Origin: Thermococcus sp.
GTDB taxonomy: Archaea; Methanobacteriota_B; Thermococci; Thermococcales; Thermococcaceae
Assembly: GCA_027035445.1 (NCBI GenBank)
Contig: JALVUT010000262.1
Location: 1-8,270, forward strand
Length of the DNA stretch: 8,270 bases
Direction: 5' to 3'
Below, piece by piece: positions 821 to 8,248 of this stretch (position 1 is its first letter; the number at the start of each line of letters is the position of its first letter). The translations under genes and the position numbers were made by a program. Under the pieces are notes generated by a model. It was not told the origin of the DNA. It saw nothing but the letters and a program-made list of their open reading frames with translations, and did no database searches.

Positions 821-2146
821 TCACTTCCCCGCTATCCTCACGTTCTCGAACTTCACGTGGGGTGTTATCATGGTTGTCATAAAGGGCATGACCGTCTGCT
901 CCCTTGTGACTTCGCTTGCCTCCCTCAGAATGTCATAGATGTTGCCAGCAATCAGGAACACACTCGCACCCTTGACCTCACCATCTTCGATGAGGAAGGC
1001 AGGGTTTGCGGTAACCGCAAAGTTTCCGTTATCGGGGTTGCTTGAGTGCGCCCCTTGGAAGCCGTCCACTAGGTAACCCCTCTTGATCTCGCCCACGACA
1101 TCCTCAAGCGTCCGATTCCCCTTCTCGATGACCATGCTGTGAAATCCGATGTTCACCCCGCCGCTTCCCGTGTCGCGCTTCCCATTCCCGGTGCTTCCAG
1201 TGCCATGGATCCTGCCCCAGTAATTATCCCAGACAAAGCTCTTAAAGATGCCTTTTTCGATCAGGACGTTCTTCCTCGTCGGAACGCCCTCACCGTCGGC
1301 TATGATCGGCTCAATGGTCAGTGGATGGAACGGGTCATCATAGATCGTCAGGACTTCACTTGCTATTCTCTCACCGGTCCTGTCTGCCAATGGGGTCGTC
1401 CCCTTGATCAGTCTCTCCCCACTGAACGCAGGGAAAAGGGCGTAGCTCAGCAGGCCGGCAATCGCCCACGGACCAAGTATAACCGGCACCTCCTCGTTTC
1501 TGCTCTTTTCGACGTTGTAGGCCCATCTGACCTTCTGGACGGCCCTCTCGACAACGCCTTCAACGTCCAAGTTGAGGTTCCTGCGAGCGTCGAAGTCGAA
1601 GATACCTGGGGTTACGATACCCTTCTTCCTACCGACGAATTCCAGAAAGAAGAAGGCCGCCCCACCCTCCTGAGAAATGTCTATCCCGTGGGAGTTCAGG
1701 ATTCTGCTCTCCTCCCATCCAACACCGCCTTCTCCTCCAGCGACTATGAGATTCTCGTCCTTCTCGCGGGCGAGCTTTATGCCGCGGACGAGTTTCTCAA
1801 CGAGGGCATCGGGTGAGACATCTTTGAGCTCGTAGTTCGGCTTTACTTTTCTCCTGTACTCCTCGGGCTCAGGAAGGGAAACCCAGTTCTCGTCCGGGCT
1901 GTTGAGCTTCGCCATCTTGGCCGCCTGCTCAATGGCCTCCCTGATCCTTTCCGGCTCCTCACTGTCAATTACAGCCAGGCCGAGACGCTTGTCCTTGATC
2001 CCCCGGATTACAGTTACCGCCCCGCTCCTTGATGAGGCCATTGAGATCTCGTTCAGCTCGACGCTCGCGCTGACATCCCTTGAACGGTAAACGGCTATCT
2101 CAAGCTCGTCAAAAAACTTCCCGCCAAATCTTATCAGGTTCTCCAT
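821..2146 (-). CDS. tldE: TldE/PmbA-like subunit of the TldD/TldE metalloprotease
   Basis: This 441-residue protein is the non-catalytic partner in the cytoplasmic TldD/TldE protease. In E. coli the heterodimer degrades unfolded peptides and removes the leader of microcin B17. The PmbA-type C-terminal part is recognisable: a G-E-G-V-P-T-R stretch (about residues 285-291, numbered from the ATG at 2146) followed by K-N-V-L-I-E-K-G, and G-F-Q-G-A-H-S (about 362-368) leading into N-P-D-N-G-N-F and A-F-L-I-E-D-G-E. There is no HExxxH motif, as expected for TldE. I chose the ATG at 2146 over the GTG at 2155 because a GAGGTG ribosome binding site (2158-2153) lies six bases upstream of the ATG and overlaps the GTG. 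The tldD stop codon (2159-2157) sits within this site, so the two genes form a tight operon with coupled translation. Confidence 0.92.
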   Translation of the reverse strand: MENLIRFGGKFFDELEIAVYRSRDVSASVELNEISMASSRSGAVTVIRGIKDKRLGLAVIDSEEPERIREAIEQAAKMAKLNSPDENWVSLPEPEEYRRKVKPNYELKDVSPDALVEKLVRGIKLAREKDENLIVAGGEGGVGWEESRILNSHGIDISQEGGAAFFFLEFVGRKKGIVTPGIFDFDARRNLNLDVEGVVERAVQKVRWAYNVEKSRNEEVPVILGPWAIAGLLSYALFPAFSGERLIKGTTPLADRTGERIASEVLTIYDDPFHPLTIEPIIADGEGVPTRKNVLIEKGIFKSFVWDNYWGRIHGTGSTGNGKRDTGSGGVNIGFHSMVIEKGNRTLEDVVGEIKRGYLVDGFQGAHSSNPDNGNFAVTANPAFLIEDGEVKGASVFLIAGNIYDILREASEVTREQTVMPFMTTMITPHVKFENVRIAGK

Positions 2147-2156
2147 CTTCACCACC

Positions 2157-3524
2157 TCACCCGATTAGTATTCCTCCGTCGAACTTCATGTGAGGCCCGC
2201 CGGAGCTGACGAAGGCCGTCTGCCCCTTTCCGCAGAAGCCAACCTCAAGGCCAAAGTCATTTCCAACGGCGCTTATCTTCTTCAGCGCCTCGATGGCAAC
2301 GCCTGTTATTGACGTGTCCCTTATAGGCTCGGCTATCTCCCCGTTCCTGATGACATAGCCCTCTTGAACCCCGACTTGGAAGGCGCTGTTGAGCTGGGCC
2401 TGGCCACCGCGGAAGTCAACCACGTAGTAGCCGAACTTGATGTCCTCTATCAGCTCCTCAAGGGAGTGATCACCGGGCTCGAAGACGGTGTTCCTCATCC
2501 TGATTATCGGGGCATAGCGGTAGCTCTCGGCCCTTGCGTGGCCGTTCGGTTCCATGTTCCATCTGTGGGCGTATTCGCGGTTGAGCATAATCCCCTTAAG
2601 GACTCCATTCTCGATGATGCGTATGTCCCTCACCGGGACGCCCTCATCATCATAGCGGTCGTTTCCAAAGCCGCCTTCAACATGACGCTCGCTCATCGTG
2701 ACGTACTCCGGGGCGATCCGCTTCCCGATCAGATCTTTGAAGGGGGAATTTATCGTCAAATCGGCCTCTGCCAGATGTCCCAGCGCTTCGTGGGCTATGA
2801 TTCCAACGACTATAGGACCGGCAACTATTGGGAACTCGCCGCGCCTTGGAGCGATTCCCTTAAGTTGGCTGTGCATCTTTCTCAATAAGCGCTCGGTGAC
2901 CTTTTCGTTCGGTTCGTGGTCAGTCATCAGCTCCCAGCCGTAGTCAACCGCCCCTATGCTGTCCCTTGCCATCGCAAGCTTTCCATTGGCCTTTCCGGTG
3001 ACATAGACCCCCTGATAGAGGTAGTTGTAATCCCACTCTATCCTCGTGCCCTCGTTGGTGAGGAGGAGCTTCCTGCCGCCGCCGTCTTCGTACCTTACCT
3101 GCACGCTCTTTACGGCCTCGTCCTCCTTGAGAAGCCTCTCCAGCTCCCTGAGGTGGTTGACCTTCTCATCGATGTCCGTTTCCTCTGGCCTGACCTTCAT
3201 CCTGCTCTTCACAAAGTCCTCGACCGGCTTCACCTCAGCCAGCTCTATTCTCTCCCTCTTCGTGGTCGCAGCCGCTTTGGCCAGCTTGTAGGCCTCTTCG
3301 ATCTTCTTTTCTAGGTTGGCAAGGTCACTCGTTGAGGAGAAGCCCCATGCCCCATTTGCCAAGACCCTTATAGCTATCCCCCGGTTGAGTTTGCCGGTAA
3401 AGCTCGTGAAAACACCGTCCTTCAATCCAAGCGTCGTCTTTCTCAAGTCCTCATAGCGCAGTTCTATATAGTCCACCTTCAGGTTCTCCTCAGCCCACCG
3501 AAGGGCCCTCTCAAGTGCCTCCAT
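2157..3524 (-). CDS. tldD: TldD, zinc metalloprotease subunit of TldD/TldE
   Basis: This is the catalytic subunit of the TldD/TldE protease, 455 residues from the chosen start, a normal family length. The zinc motif H-E-A-L-G-H (HExxxH) lies at residues 245-250. A cysteine in V-G-F-C-G-K-G (residue 431) matches the position of the third zinc ligand known from E. coli TldD (Cys454). A D-D-E-G-V-P-V-R-D segment (about 292-300) and F-R-G-G-Q-A-Q (about 371-377) are typical of the family. The open frame begins at a GTG (3533), but a GGTGG ribosome binding site (3534-3530) precedes the ATG at 3524 by five bases and would overlap the GTG, so I prefer the ATG. It is the first gene of the tldD-tldE operon, with a TATA box about 45 bases upstream. 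The catalytic residues look intact. Confidence 0.95.
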   Translation of the reverse strand: MEALERALRWAEENLKVDYIELRYEDLRKTTLGLKDGVFTSFTGKLNRGIAIRVLANGAWGFSSTSDLANLEKKIEEAYKLAKAAATTKRERIELAEVKPVEDFVKSRMKVRPEETDIDEKVNHLRELERLLKEDEAVKSVQVRYEDGGGRKLLLTNEGTRIEWDYNYLYQGVYVTGKANGKLAMARDSIGAVDYGWELMTDHEPNEKVTERLLRKMHSQLKGIAPRRGEFPIVAGPIVVGIIAHEALGHLAEADLTINSPFKDLIGKRIAPEYVTMSERHVEGGFGNDRYDDEGVPVRDIRIIENGVLKGIMLNREYAHRWNMEPNGHARAESYRYAPIIRMRNTVFEPGDHSLEELIEDIKFGYYVVDFRGGQAQLNSAFQVGVQEGYVIRNGEIAEPIRDTSITGVAIEALKKISAVGNDFGLEVGFCGKGQTAFVSSGGPHMKFDGGILIG

Positions 3525-3565
3525 GGTTACCACCGTTTACATCTGTCCATTGATGGATGGCCAGT

Positions 3566-3695: not shown

Positions 3696-3735
3696 TGAGG
3701 GAGAACACCCAGTGTGGAACCCGTGGGGGATGCCG

Positions 3736-4095
3736 ATGAAAGCGGAAGACAGAGCATCCTTTATTTTAACAGGCATCTTCATGGTTCTACTCCTCTCGTT
3801 AGTCTGGACGAGCAACGGGCAGTACGAAACCAAGCTGAAGGTCTCTCTCGTGCTAATATTGCCCGTGCTGCTGGCAGTTGGCGTCATTCTTGTGGTTCAG
3901 AGGTGGAGGAGGAACACGCTATTGGCTTACACTTCGGGACTTTTGGTCTTTGCCGTGGGAAACTTGGCGTCGGGTTACATACTTCTTGGGGAAATAGACG
4001 TTTTGCCTGCTGTGGTTGGTATTGCCGTGGGGAGCGTTCTTCTCCTGCTCAAAAGATGGGGGAAAAGGACGAGGGAGGGAACACCTTCCCCCTGA
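3736..4095 (+). CDS. Small four-helix membrane protein, paralogue A
   Basis: I do not recognise a named family. The 119-residue product has a charged N-terminus and four hydrophobic segments at about residues 8-25, 36-54, 62-84 and 87-106, followed by a basic tail (K-R-W-G-K-R-T-R). It aligns without a gap over about 108 residues with the 118-aa protein at 5491, with 52 identities by my count (about 48 %). Shared blocks are L-L-L-S-L-V-W-T, V-F-A and S-G-Y with L-G two residues on. That alignment decides the start: M-K-A-E-D matches M-K-P-E-E, so I use the ATG at 3736 instead of the GTG at 3712 or the ATG at 3730. The pair flanks the Cys-rich protein gene, so a role in immunity, export or envelope stress is possible, but nothing in the sequence shows it. 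Confidence 0.72.
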   Translation: MKAEDRASFILTGIFMVLLLSLVWTSNGQYETKLKVSLVLILPVLLAVGVILVVQRWRRNTLLAYTSGLLVFAVGNLASGYILLGEIDVLPAVVGIAVGSVLLLLKRWGKRTREGTPSP

Positions 4096-4443: not shown

Positions 4444-5118
4444 ATGAGGAGGCGTGCGTTACTGGCCATATTTGTAGCCCTGCTTGTGATTGGAGCGTAC
4501 GGTGCCTACGTGGTAAGCTATCCCAAGTACCCGGAAGTTAAGGGTTGCGTAAACCCGTTTGCAGTTACAAAACCAGTGAGCAAGGTTCAAGAGAACTGGT
4601 CCGGAGTTCACGTGTTTTTCAAGCTGGTTACGACGAGAGACTTCTGGAAGCTGGTAAAACCCTGGGACGTTGACTACTCTCACGTTAAGGTTGTCAAGCA
4701 TACGATTGATTACAATGGCGAGAAAGTAACCATGCTCGCCATGGGGATCCCGTTGAAGGATAAAAAGCACGTGATTGCCATCTACGAATTCTCAAAACCA
4801 GTACAAGGAGTGAAAATTTTTGGGGTGGAGTATGCTATTACAGGAAATATCGCTAAGGCCAATGCTGTGTACCTCAATGGGAAATTAAAGAAACTGGACT
4901 CCAACTCATGTAGTCAAGAATGTCAGAGTAACTCTGACTGTGGATTTCTGGGTCAATGTCATTGGTATTGTTGCAAGTTTGACATTATAAAAGCAGCAGA
5001 ATGTTGTGGAATATGTGGAGATAACATTCTGTGTATTGCTACTTGGTGTGCGTTCTGTATCTACGAATCATGCTATCAGTGGGGATCGTACTGTCAAGGC
5101 TGGACTCCAGGGCCCTGA
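4444..5118 (+). CDS. Exported precursor with Cys-rich C-terminal module; candidate halocin C8-like archaeocin
   Basis: The 224-residue product starts with M-R-R-R and a hydrophobic segment (about 5-24), a signal peptide or anchor; the arginines recall a Tat signal but the full consensus is absent. Residues 30-150 form a mixed domain of predicted strands with one cysteine (C35). Residues 156-217 hold 14 cysteines (156, 160, 166, 172, 176, 177, 187, 188, 191, 197, 202, 205, 210, 217), including two CC pairs and C-G-I-C, C-x4-C and C-x2-C spacings, then end in G-W-T-P-G-P. The even number and extracellular location suggest disulfides. The halocin C8 precursor (known) has the same order: export signal, immunity domain, Cys-rich peptide released by cleavage. 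I infer a related archaeocin; no clear sequence identity is claimed. Alternatives are a metal-binding or structural surface protein. Twelve of the 14 module cysteines use TGT and the DNA is AT-richer than its neighbours, hinting at transfer. A small membrane protein gene follows after 12 bases. Confidence 0.7.
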   Translation: MRRRALLAIFVALLVIGAYGAYVVSYPKYPEVKGCVNPFAVTKPVSKVQENWSGVHVFFKLVTTRDFWKLVKPWDVDYSHVKVVKHTIDYNGEKVTMLAMGIPLKDKKHVIAIYEFSKPVQGVKIFGVEYAITGNIAKANAVYLNGKLKKLDSNSCSQECQSNSDCGFLGQCHWYCCKFDIIKAAECCGICGDNILCIATWCAFCIYESCYQWGSYCQGWTPGP

Positions 5119-5130
5119 GGGGGTAAAAAA

Positions 5131-5406
5131 ATGAACGAAAGCTTTATCAAAAACTTCTTGTCTGCTGTCTTCTCAATTCTGCTTTTTTGGCTTGTATACT
5201 TATACGAAAAACCCCGGATAGAGCACACGAGGGCAAAGATCATGGGTGCTATAGTCTTTATAGCGGTGACACTGCTCCTGTCCAGAATTGGGTTCTTAGC
5301 TTGGGAGTATTCCGAAGTTGGTGTGCTAGCGGCTCTTTTAATAATGACTGCTGAACTTGTCTGGGCAGGATATCTAAAGAGTAGGGTAATGAGGAAAACC
5401 ATCTAA
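5131..5406 (+). CDS. Small three-helix membrane protein, candidate immunity partner
   Basis: This 91-residue protein is not one I recognise. It has three hydrophobic segments at about residues 8-25, 37-58 and 62-82, short charged loops (Y-E-K-P-R-I-E-H-T-R after helix 1) and a basic end (K-S-R-V-M-R-K-T-I). A GGGGGT site overlapping the upstream stop region (5117-5123) precedes the ATG at 5131 by seven bases. The gene lies 12 bases after the Cys-rich precursor gene, so the two are almost certainly co-transcribed. Small multi-helix membrane proteins next to peptide antibiotic genes are often immunity proteins, which is the basis for the suggestion here; there is no direct sequence evidence for that role. 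Confidence 0.75.
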   Translation: MNESFIKNFLSAVFSILLFWLVYLYEKPRIEHTRAKIMGAIVFIAVTLLLSRIGFLAWEYSEVGVLAALLIMTAELVWAGYLKSRVMRKTI

Positions 5407-5490: not shown

Positions 5491-5847
5491 ATGAAGCCCG
5501 AGGAGAAGGTATCTCTTTTCCTGATTCTCATCTTCTTGATTCTGCTCCTCTCGTTGGTCTGGACTGGCAATGAGCCGCACGGCTTCAAACTGAAGATATC
5601 CCTCTCCCTCGTTCTATCCGTGGGGATAATGGTTGGAACGGTTTTCGCAGTTCGGCGGTGGACTGAAAGCAACGTACTGGCACACACTGCGGGTCTTGTC
5701 GTCTTTGCTACTGGATACGTTCTCTCCGGCTATCTGGTGCTCGGGAAAGTCGATGTAGCAACTACTATGGCTGGCCTTACCATTGGCCTTCTGCTAATTC
5801 TGCTCGAAAGATGGGAAGAGAACAGACCATCAGCAAATGGAGGGTAA
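5491..5847 (+). CDS. Small four-helix membrane protein, paralogue B
   Basis: The 118-residue product is the paralogue of the protein at 3736, aligned end to end with no gap. Hydrophobic segments lie at about residues 7-25, 35-54, 61-84 and 87-106, with an acidic/polar tail (E-R-W-E-E-N-R-P) where the paralogue has a basic one. The DNA is also similar: a 20-base stretch at 5545-5564 differs from 3790-3809 by one base. The start is supported by GGTGAGGTGA (5480-5489) just upstream. A short frame reading M-K-M-A-G-G-E-V-T from 5465 ends in a TGA that overlaps this ATG (ATGA), possibly the remains of an upstream gene or a coupling leader. The gap to the preceding gene is 84 bases with no clear promoter, so it is probably in the same transcript. 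Function is unknown. Confidence 0.78.
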   Translation: MKPEEKVSLFLILIFLILLLSLVWTGNEPHGFKLKISLSLVLSVGIMVGTVFAVRRWTESNVLAHTAGLVVFATGYVLSGYLVLGKVDVATTMAGLTIGLLLILLERWEENRPSANGG

Positions 5848-5863
5848 ATATGGGGTGATAAAA

Positions 5864-6094
5864 ATGAACACTTGGATTGGAGTGATCATAGTTGTGGGCA
5901 TTCCCTTTCTAATCTATTTCTATTCAAAAACACGGGGGGGTACACCCAAAGCGGGGCTGACAGCCATCACAACATATATCTTCCTTGGGCTGGCCCTGAT
6001 AGCCTTCGGCTGGAACATCAGCCCCTGGACAATAATCCTTCCCGGTCTCTTCGTGGCCTTATCGGACGTCCTCCAGCTCAGGCAGCGCCCTTAG
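5864..6094 (+). CDS. Small three-helix membrane protein
   Basis: This 76-residue protein has hydrophobic segments at about residues 3-20, 31-49 and 54-70, joined by a short basic glycine-containing loop (S-K-T-R-G-G-T-P-K-A), and ends in Q-L-R-Q-R-P. I do not recognise the family. The frame extends upstream to an ATG at 5837, inside the previous gene, but GGGGTGAT (5852-5859) sits five bases before the ATG at 5864, which also gives a sensible N-terminus. The gene is 16 bases after paralogue B, so the two form an operon. It is the last member of the run of small membrane protein genes; its link to the Cys-rich precursor is by position only. Confidence 0.75.
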   Translation: MNTWIGVIIVVGIPFLIYFYSKTRGGTPKAGLTAITTYIFLGLALIAFGWNISPWTIILPGLFVALSDVLQLRQRP

Positions 6095-6258: not shown

Positions 6259-6289
6259 GGAAGCTGTTTACTGGGTGACGGGGAGACAC

Positions 6290-7196
6290 ATGAAAGAGAA
6301 CGTGATGGAAGAATTCTTTGACATAGAAGCGCCGCATTACTTGGATGAGCCGTTTACAAAGAACACCGCGGAGGAGATTGAGTTTATAGTACGGGAATTT
6401 GGATTTCCTGCAGGTGCGAGGATTCTGGACATGGGGTGTGGTGCTGGGAGACACTCCATAGAGCTGGCAAAGAGGGATACAAGGTCACCGGCGTAGACAT
6501 TTCCCAGGGGATGCTGAATGAGGCCAGAAGACGGGCCGAGAGTGCAGGGGCTGAAGTGGAATTCGCCAGGGCCGATGCCACCGAGTTCAGAAGGGAAGGT
6601 GAGTTCGACGGGGTCATCTGTCTCTGCGAGGTGCCTTCTCGCTTATAGGCTCGGGAGACAATCCAATAGAGCACGACATTGCGATACTGCGGAATGTTTA
6701 TGATTCGCTGAGGCCGGGTGGGAAATTTCTCCTAACTGCTTTAAGCGCCCTTGGACGGATAAAGGAAACCACCAACGAGGATATAGAGAAGGGCCTCTTT
6801 GACCCGGATACCATGACCTTCCTCGAGGAACTGGAAGCTCCCAACGGGAGGAGGTTCTCCATAAGGGAACGCGTCTACGTTCCAACAGAACTGTACCTGA
6901 TGTTATACTCCAATGTTCATGCAGACTTCAGCAGTGCTTTAATATTTGTCCTAGGCGGTGATTCATTTAAACTCAGGCACGGAGCACAGTATCAAGTCTA
7001 CATTGGGACTGACAAGCCAATTTCTCTCAGCGTGATAAAACAAAAGGGGGAGAAGTTCTGGGAAATGCTTGATAAAGGAAAAACTGCATATGAAGCAATG
7101 GAATCTATTCAGCCAAGCTGGTGGGAAAGGTACATTGAGGGAAAAGCGTCATTTGAACTGGATGGAGACAAGAATTGGAGGCTTGGCTCGGGATGA
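6290..7196 (+). pseudogene. Class I SAM-dependent methyltransferase, broken by two frameshifts, with an odd C-terminus
   Basis: Joining three frames rebuilds a class I methyltransferase: N-terminal E-E-F-F-D-I-E-A-P-H-Y, motif I I-L-D-M-G-C-G-A-G-R-H-S (6422-6457), then G-V-D-I-S motif II with its acidic residue, D-A-T-E-F, L-C-E and L-R-P-G-G-K. The first shift is at 6474-6476, where GGG should be GGGG to continue A-K-R into G-Y-K-V-T-G. The second is at 6630-6631, where GG should be GGG to join C-E to G-A-F-S-L-I-G-S-G. Both are single-base losses in G runs, so assembly error and true decay are both possible. A GGGGAG site precedes the ATG at 6290. After P-T-E-L-Y-L-M-L-Y-S (about 6906) the frame stays open for about 95 codons that do not resemble the usual short family C-terminus. 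Its TGA overlaps the ATG at 7193. The methylated substrate cannot be told. Confidence 0.85.
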
Positions 7197-8248
7197 AGGA
7201 TGTAAGAAAATACCTACTGGCAATTCTCCTCCTTCTCACACTTTTTATAGCACTCCTGGGTCAGAAGACCTACAAAGCCCCAAGACCAATCAAAGGGACT
7301 GAGGTGAAGTTCGCAGGCAAAGTGTACTCAAAATCCCTTGAGATACTCGACAACACGGGATACACCATCCACATCCTCCTGTGTCCGCTGGCCGATGAAA
7401 ACGTGGCCGTCAACGTAACACCCAGGGGGTGGATAGACAAAAAGGCCGCCACCTACGTTATTCTCCCCCCTGAGTCGTATCCACCAGGGTTCCTTGAGAG
7501 CGTTTCTAAAGAAGTGGGGAAGTTTCGAATTGTCACTGCCACAATCTCAAACTTCAGCTACAAAAACGGTACGATAATGTACATAGGGCACCTAAAGAAA
7601 GGTGAATGCACTGTTCTGTCTATAAGGGCGATATTCAAGAAAGCAGGCCTCCCCCAGAGGATTGACGTCAGTGGTCTAGGCGTCGGTGAGCTCGTTCTGC
7701 CGAACGCCATCCTGAGGGGAGGAAACGAAAGTTACAGGCTTGAGGTTTGGATCCCGTGGGATTACGGCAACTGGTCGCTATCCGTGCTGGTTCCTAGGAG
7801 ACTTGGAAGAGACCCCACCTATGCCATGGAGCTTGAGAATTATATGGAAGCTCTCCTCTCTCCCCTCCAGAAGGGAATCTTTTCCCTTGATTCGCTGAAA
7901 AGGCCGACCATTTCGGAGCCGGAACCGCCCGATAGTTACTGTGCCGAGCTTTCCGCTCCGGGAGATTTGATATATACCCAACGCCCCCTCGACGAGTCTT
8001 CTCTCTACGGCGATGGATCCTACTTTGAAACGGATTTCTCTGGAAATTCAAGCAGGGGGATAACCTTAAATTTAACTGCAAAAGGTTGCAGTCCCGCAGT
8101 GTGGCTCGTATTCCAGGGAAAAGCCGAAAACCTGCTTACGGGGCCGTTTTTGTCCTCAGTTCAGATTGAAGCCAGGGGAAAGGGAAGCGTTTGGAGTTCA
8201 AAGATTGAAGTCATTGATGATGTCGTTGTCGAGCCCACCATTCATTGA
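7193..8248 (+). CDS. Exported or membrane-anchored protein of unknown function
   Basis: The 351-residue product begins M-K-D-V-R-K-Y followed by a hydrophobic segment (about 7-23), a signal peptide or anchor, so most of the protein lies outside the cell. I recognise no domain. The body is rich in predicted strands and has six N-x-S/T sequons (N at about 120, 125, 178, 193, 285 and 293), suggesting archaeal N-glycosylation, and four cysteines (64, 139, 250, 299) that could form two disulfides. A Pro/Glu-rich linker (about 238-248) may separate two domains. The frame could extend to a TTG at 7175, but the ATG at 7193 gives a normal signal sequence and overlaps the upstream TGA as ATGA, implying translational coupling. 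GGAGG at 7177-7181 is eleven bases away, rather far. The upstream coupled frame seems to be a gene remnant. Confidence 0.8.
   Translation: MKDVRKYLLAILLLLTLFIALLGQKTYKAPRPIKGTEVKFAGKVYSKSLEILDNTGYTIHILLCPLADENVAVNVTPRGWIDKKAATYVILPPESYPPGFLESVSKEVGKFRIVTATISNFSYKNGTIMYIGHLKKGECTVLSIRAIFKKAGLPQRIDVSGLGVGELVLPNAILRGGNESYRLEVWIPWDYGNWSLSVLVPRRLGRDPTYAMELENYMEALLSPLQKGIFSLDSLKRPTISEPEPPDSYCAELSAPGDLIYTQRPLDESSLYGDGSYFETDFSGNSSRGITLNLTAKGCSPAVWLVFQGKAENLLTGPFLSSVQIEARGKGSVWSSKIEVIDDVVVEPTIH

Follow-up and report, generated by a model that had tools for sequence, protein, structure and literature searches.

The window analysed here, a stretch of 8,270 nucleotides from the forward strand of contig JALVUT010000262.1 (assembly GCA_027035445.1, Thermococcus sp.), carries an open reading frame for a precursor protein with a cysteine-rich C-terminal tail, which lies among genes for small membrane proteins and beside a tldE-tldD pair. 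The features discussed below are listed first; L, G and P numbers stand for loci, genomes and proteins, respectively.

821-3533, minus strand: tldE (821-2155) and tldD (2157-3533), divergent neighbours at a recurrent cassette site (profile matches, recurrence)
3736-4095, plus strand: upstream extra membrane gene of the L016/L017 type, a paralogue of 5491-5847 (frame opens at 3712; the ATG at 3736 is the likelier start)
4444-5118, plus strand: precursor gene, with signal or anchor segment, conserved pro-domain and variable Cys-rich tail (open reading frame, homologues)
4444-4515, plus strand: hydrophobic segment, at residues about 1-24, that serves as signal or anchor for export (AlphaFold2 helix 2-24; conserved in the family alignment and also in P0069)
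4525-4815, plus strand: core of the conserved N-terminal (pro-)domain, residues 28-124, with one conserved cysteine, C35 (alignments, models)
4804-4833, plus strand: exchange junction, about codons 121-130 (DNA identity falls between pairs with unlike tails)
4903-5115, plus strand: Cys-rich tail, residues 154-224, 14 cysteines, effector role predicted (cysteine counts; AlphaFold2, folded at about 163-218)
5131-5406, plus strand: cognate small membrane protein, 91 aa, three hydrophobic segments, predicted immunity protein (tail covariation, genome occurrence)
5491-5847, plus strand: 118-aa extra membrane gene; genes of its type are cognate to the L016/L017 tail (sequence match)
5864-6094, plus strand: extra small membrane gene, distantly like the L018 neighbour (38% identity; frame opens at 5837; the ATG at 5864 is the likelier start)

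The remainder of the window holds a SAM methyltransferase at 6275-7196 that seems to be divided between ORFs in overlapping frames (6275-6496 and 6436-6648, both with Pfam methyltransferase matches, the first sub-threshold) and is probably either broken or affected by sequencing errors, and a 357-aa ORF at 7175-8248 whose N-terminus is hydrophobic and which matches nothing in Pfam or NCBIfam at E<=1.

The precursor gene and its family

The ORF at 4444-5118 starts with ATG on the plus strand and encodes 224 amino acids; on the evidence of 52 proteins that match it at E<=10 in a search of 5.8 billion proteins, and of an ORF in genome G064 that is 96% identical to it, it is a real gene. A hydrophobic N-terminal segment, judged to be an export signal by its hydrophobicity, is followed by a domain of about 125 amino acids and then by the tail, with 14 cysteines between residues 156 and 217 (62 residues), C35 in the N domain being one more. 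The order of export signal, domain and Cys-rich tail reported in the earlier note is found in the ORF as described there. AlphaFold2 predicts a beta-rich N domain for the window precursor and a tail that is folded at high confidence (predicted fold at about 163-218), and comparison of the modelled fold with the PDB gave no usable match and none at E<=0.001. We also considered a cysteine-protease role for C35 together with a conserved His and Asp.

Cysteines were counted over 53 family members including the window protein, of which three with tails of 90 aa or less were left out. Among the remaining 50, the tail has an even number of cysteines (14, 16, 18 or 20) in 47, the odd exceptions being P0035, P0041 and P0052, and the N part has exactly one cysteine in 47. 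The tails of the window and the fetched loci, which form 20 similarity clusters, have even numbers in 34 of 34 cases (the broken L032 left out, near-duplicates kept). Even numbers combined with changing spacing point to disulfides rather than to one conserved metal site, and the cysteine pattern looks to be under selection. Compact tails with even numbers of cysteines are typical of released peptides, and the tail is probably a Cys-rich, disulfide-linked effector.

The family profile detects 70 proteins at E<=0.01 among the 7,996 scored candidates that share most words with it, and homologues occur, fragments counted, in 39 of 94 Thermococcales genomes. Where hosts of the matches are named they are Thermococcus, Pyrococcus, Palaeococcus or a Thermococcaceae archaeon, and the proteins are labelled 'hypothetical'; the precursor belongs to an uncharacterised Thermococcales family. 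It matches no NCBIfam family at E<=1 and its sole Pfam row is sub-threshold (E 0.17). In Pfam at E<=10 the beta-sandwich VWA7_4 occurs below threshold in 8 of 53 family members (best E 0.0037), and the family has no Ig or E-set match among the Pfam families listed. Searches of Pfam, NCBIfam, PHROGs, PADLOC and PDB sequences gave no toxin or immunity domain with a usable score, the eight neighbouring membrane proteins scanned against Pfam returning sub-threshold rows only (e.g., YoqO 0.0058, BacA 0.012); a new toxin would likewise give no recognisable toxin-domain match. The distant relative P0069 shares the signal and a Cys-rich tail but has a different middle domain, and apparent remnants of its tail type are seen in the arrays of L043 (+763 from the precursor stop) and L045 (+587). 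A mobile element or virus as carrier was set aside, as plasmid and phage records held no family match and the viral contigs scanned with P0069 held no relative of it.

Conserved carrier, exchangeable tail and membrane partner

Forty genome stretches (L014-L053) were fetched and, with the window, make up 41 loci. Six whose tail is short or absent (L040, L048, L049, L051, L052 and L053) were dropped to leave 35; removal of the near-duplicates L023, L028 and L046 gave the set of 32 used for Mantel tests, and further removal of L032 (broken tail) and of L015, L042 and L050 (N part incomplete or broken) gave a set of 28. Residues 1-124 are on average 74% identical between pairs of these 28 non-redundant loci with full-length N parts; the averages for the tail and for the gene that follows are 40% and 24%. 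When five pairs whose tails are unlike were compared, DNA identity drops from about 75-100% to mostly 30-60% near codons 121-131, a sharp fall of the kind that cassette exchange predicts, and no such fall is seen at the junction in the control pair L014/window, which has the same tail. N domains that are 0.98 similar can bear tails that are unlike (0.22 and 0.35; two pairs). Comparison of these sequences thus shows the signal and N domain as a conserved carrier and the tail, from about codon 125, as an exchangeable cassette, an arrangement that is among the marks of polymorphic toxin systems.

Membrane spans were predicted by simple hydropathy with a script of our own. The next ORF is small (60-160 aa) and has a predicted span at 34 of 34 full-tail loci, as against 28 of 299 for other ORFs of the loci (at least 150 aa), and at least two spans are predicted in 31 of 34 neighbour ORFs as against 6 of 299. 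Tail similarity and neighbour similarity rise together (Mantel rho 0.57, p 5e-5, n=32), whereas the N part is correlated neither with the neighbour (0.03, p 0.36) nor with the tail (0.08, p 0.22) in the same set. A partial Mantel test of tail against neighbour again gives 0.57 (p 2e-4), and the relationship persists when the test is confined to the set of 28 (0.59), to the tldD site (0.54, n=14) or to a single locus from each tail cluster (0.53, n=18), each with p 2e-4. Since N part and tail are uncorrelated although they lie in one gene, linkage alone fails to explain the correlation between tail and neighbour.

When neighbours are called related at a similarity of at least 0.2 and all 378 pairs are considered, related neighbours are found in 11 of 12 pairs with tail similarity of at least 0.7 and in 3 of 366 below it; these tail limits were picked after seeing the data, and laxer ones give 12 of 16 (at least 0.6) and 14 of 22 (at least 0.5). 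Among pairs with N similarity of at least 0.90, related neighbours occur in 1 of 56. There are exceptions in which alike tails have unlike neighbours, namely L029/L020 (tail 0.78, neighbour 0.14), L022/L016, L022/L017 and L039/L018. Two of the 94 genomes, G064 and G065, have the window's own neighbour gene, 5131-5406, and the tails there match that of the window (0.99 and 0.84). A variant-specific partner gene directly downstream, predicted to confer immunity, is a further property of polymorphic toxin systems, and comparison across the loci makes a strong case for a tail that can be exchanged and a membrane partner that matches it.

Membrane genes of the cognate type also occur away from the tail to which they correspond. 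Of the 35 loci that bear tails, 10 have extra copies (three of these 10 are mutual near-duplicates; the 'EXTRA' label of L027 marks its own partner and was not counted), as do three of the six loci whose precursors are broken or cut. A further 60 stretches were fetched, 59 of them beside tldD (a few shortened by contig ends) and one elsewhere in G072. Cognate-type genes are present in 10 of the 59, of which L083 and L102 match the 5864-6094 type only, and precursor remnants accompany them in four of the ten (L073, L074, L078 and L092); the G072 stretch away from tldD, L121, also has a cognate-type gene and a precursor remnant. Orphan partner genes and cassette remnants are thus found here, as in polymorphic toxin systems. 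Partners that stand without their peptide are the usual pattern for immunity genes, and partner genes with no adjoining tail and decayed precursors beside them fit that role.

A divergent tldE-tldD pair lies upstream at 21 of the 41 loci, and its neighbourhood (821-3533 in the window; stretches L064-L123) recurs with the cassette or its leftovers in part of the Thermococcales genomes. Grouping by flanking DNA places the precursor family at other sites too. We considered TldD/TldE as the maturation protease and claim no functional link, tldD being present in 89 of 94 genomes and the family occurring elsewhere as well; the adjacency looks like one inherited, preferred site. Between the window and L014 (G064), similarity is 0.99 for the tail and 0.96 for the N part, as compared to identities of 89% for TldD and 80% for TldE, and this greater closeness of the precursor hints at exchange from species to species. 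The partner gene is just 85% identical in the same comparison, which leaves transfer of the cassette as a whole unproven.

A candidate toxin-immunity system

We consider it likely that these genes form a polymorphic archaeocin-like toxin-immunity system, in which the tail would kill relatives and the partner would protect. The precursor would be exported, with the N domain helping to fold or hold the tail, and cleavage by a protease near residue 150 would then release a peptide of about 65-75 residues that is held together by disulfides. The peptide would act at the membrane of closely related Thermococcales in which the membrane protein that matches it is missing, and the producer would be protected by the product of 5131-5406. 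The extra genes at 3736-4095, 5491-5847 and 5864-6094 would represent immunity that is kept against the tail types of rivals.

The main rival to this toxin-immunity reading is recognition or adhesion at the cell surface without killing, with the tail as a self/non-self or partner tag and the membrane protein as its receptor, anchor or export partner. It would explain the same covariation of tail and neighbour, which could mark a partner for tail-specific export, anchoring or recognition, and the N-terminal segment could serve as an anchor; passages of PMC8416519 describe VARTIG Ig proteins as hypervariable with matching membrane genes, and hypotheses of this sort are published there. Against this, partner genes stand without an adjoining tail and beside decayed precursors, which is less expected if the partner were a receptor or anchor whose tag had been lost, and the compact even-cysteine tails have, as noted above, a form usual for released peptides. 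We regard recognition as unlikely.

The proposed toxin-immunity system resembles several known systems in part. Class II bacteriocins are small peptide toxins whose gene lies next to one for a small immunity protein of the membrane, a feature that the proposed system would share; the present case differs in being archaeal and in that the peptide forms the end of a longer precursor, behind a folded pro-domain, and probably has many disulfides. Polymorphic toxin systems, whose features as used in this comparison are summarised in passages of PMC8416519, likewise combine a constant front, an exchangeable C-terminal cassette and a partner gene directly downstream, and have arrays of extra partner genes and tail remnants. 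Their tail is a nuclease or other enzyme on a large secretion protein, however, whereas here a small Cys-rich tail is borne by a short carrier with a simple signal, and the partners, unlike theirs, are small membrane proteins. The VARTIG proteins share the Thermococcales hosts, the hypervariable C-terminus and the small membrane genes that match the variant, but passages of PMC8416519 present them as large Ig-domain proteins (arCOG07710), unlike the present proteins of about 224-250 aa, which have a Cys-rich tail and no Pfam Ig match; its passages on VARTIG contain no mention of the precursor family.

Relation to halocin C8 and wider meaning

The earlier note had read the ORF as an archaeocin precursor parallel to that of halocin C8, with an N domain that gives immunity. 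The export signal, the probable effector tail rich in cysteines and the Thermococcales setting all stand, and the comparison of loci adds independent evidence for a toxin-immunity arrangement, which was not available to the note. The halocin C8 parallel, in so far as it places immunity in the N domain, is not supported. The plan of export signal, domain and Cys-rich C-terminal tail is indeed that of halocin C8-like precursors, and TIGR04449 proteins with this order exist in Thermococcales. The profile comparison that the note had proposed as a check came out negative, TIGR04449 being matched at E<=0.1 by 0 of 33 aligned family members, the window included, while the halocin C8 sequence, used as a positive control, matches at 1.1e-16. 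Compared by hhalign with halocin C8-like tails, the tail profile gives a probability of 0.25%, E 0.24 and a score of 10.7, only slightly above ten shuffled tail controls (E 0.29-0.8, scores 6.9-10.1), as against 100% in a split-half control with the family's own tails; for the N domain the corresponding comparison gives E 0.099 and a probability of 0.6%. Membership in the halocin C8 family was rejected on these grounds. The architectural parallel is real; kinship is not detectable by these profile comparisons, though it may exist at a very remote level.

A strict halocin C8 type of system, in which a single gene supplies the toxin as its tail and immunity as its N domain, is for the same reasons highly improbable. 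Apart from the missing profile match for either part, N domains that are nearly identical bear unlike tails, and an N domain so well conserved could hardly confer immunity specific to tails so variable; the tail-specific information lies in the downstream membrane gene. The halocin C8 model, as set out in a passage of PMC8628083, does not place immunity in a separate gene, in contrast to the tail-specific partner described here.

Halocin C8 and TIGR04449 proteins resemble the precursor family in being secreted precursors with a conserved domain followed by a variable Cys-rich tail; halocin C8 has 10 tail cysteines, compared to 14-20 in the family, and the family's specificity apparently resides in a separate downstream gene and not in the N domain. 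The suggestion that a halocin equivalent would be new or little described in Thermococcales is contradicted, since six of the 94 genomes of this order have TIGR04449 matches that exceed the cut-off. Fifteen TIGR04449 matches are listed in the 94 genomes, at places other than the family loci, and by this comparison the Thermococcales TIGR04449 proteins form a family of their own, built on a similar plan. Precursors of this kind at L054-L060 (in G075, G027, G073, G058, G064, G050 and G028) have a conserved domain and a variable Cys-rich tail, and may be a parallel polymorphic family; L060 is just under the TIGR04449 cut-off and L056 has a second, shorter tandem copy of the tail. A small downstream ORF, hydrophobic by eye, is often present at these loci, and several of the Thermococcales TIGR04449 genes resemble the precursor genes in being followed by such ORFs.

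There is only a very slim chance that the protein is a secreted, disulfide-rich protein with some other role, such as a WAP-type protease inhibitor or a metal-binding protein, for although the spacing in the tail's first half is reminiscent of WAP proteins, P0069 matches PF00095 (E 0.0026, 18.4 bits against a cut-off of 20.8) and the family profile finds snake omwaprin (E 0.77), PF00095 is matched by 0 of 53 family members at E<=10, the other signals are sub-threshold, shifting cysteine spacing speaks against one conserved metal site, and tail swapping, matched membrane genes and extra copies would all be left unexplained.

Competition among hyperthermophilic archaea seems to be little known. 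In the titles and abstract openings covered by a literature search we found no paper that points to the precursor family. The most pertinent earlier study, a 2019 survey by Makarova et al. (mBio 10:e00715-19), reportedly expanded halocin C8 and predicted further candidates, and the family may already be in it; unless that survey lists it, the family would be a new archaeocin-like polymorphic toxin system. With somewhat less assurance than for the toxin-immunity reading itself, we lean towards the view that Thermococcales have an order-wide arsenal of disulfide-rich toxins on one conserved carrier, with tail-plus-immunity cassettes swapped between species (often beside tldD/tldE) and collections of immunity genes held against rivals, and that these toxins would constitute a new family of archaeocins that is independent of halocin C8 and works near 80-100 C. 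Such cassettes are the likely reason for the variable islands of small 'hypothetical' membrane genes by tldD in Thermococcales. Genetic tools exist for Thermococcus kodakarensis and Pyrococcus furiosus, and the family offers a candidate toxin-immunity pair that lends itself to testing, with some 20 natural types of tail (the 34 tails form 20 clusters) and built-in specificity controls, whose disulfide-rich peptides, coming from hyperthermophile hosts, should be unusually stable.
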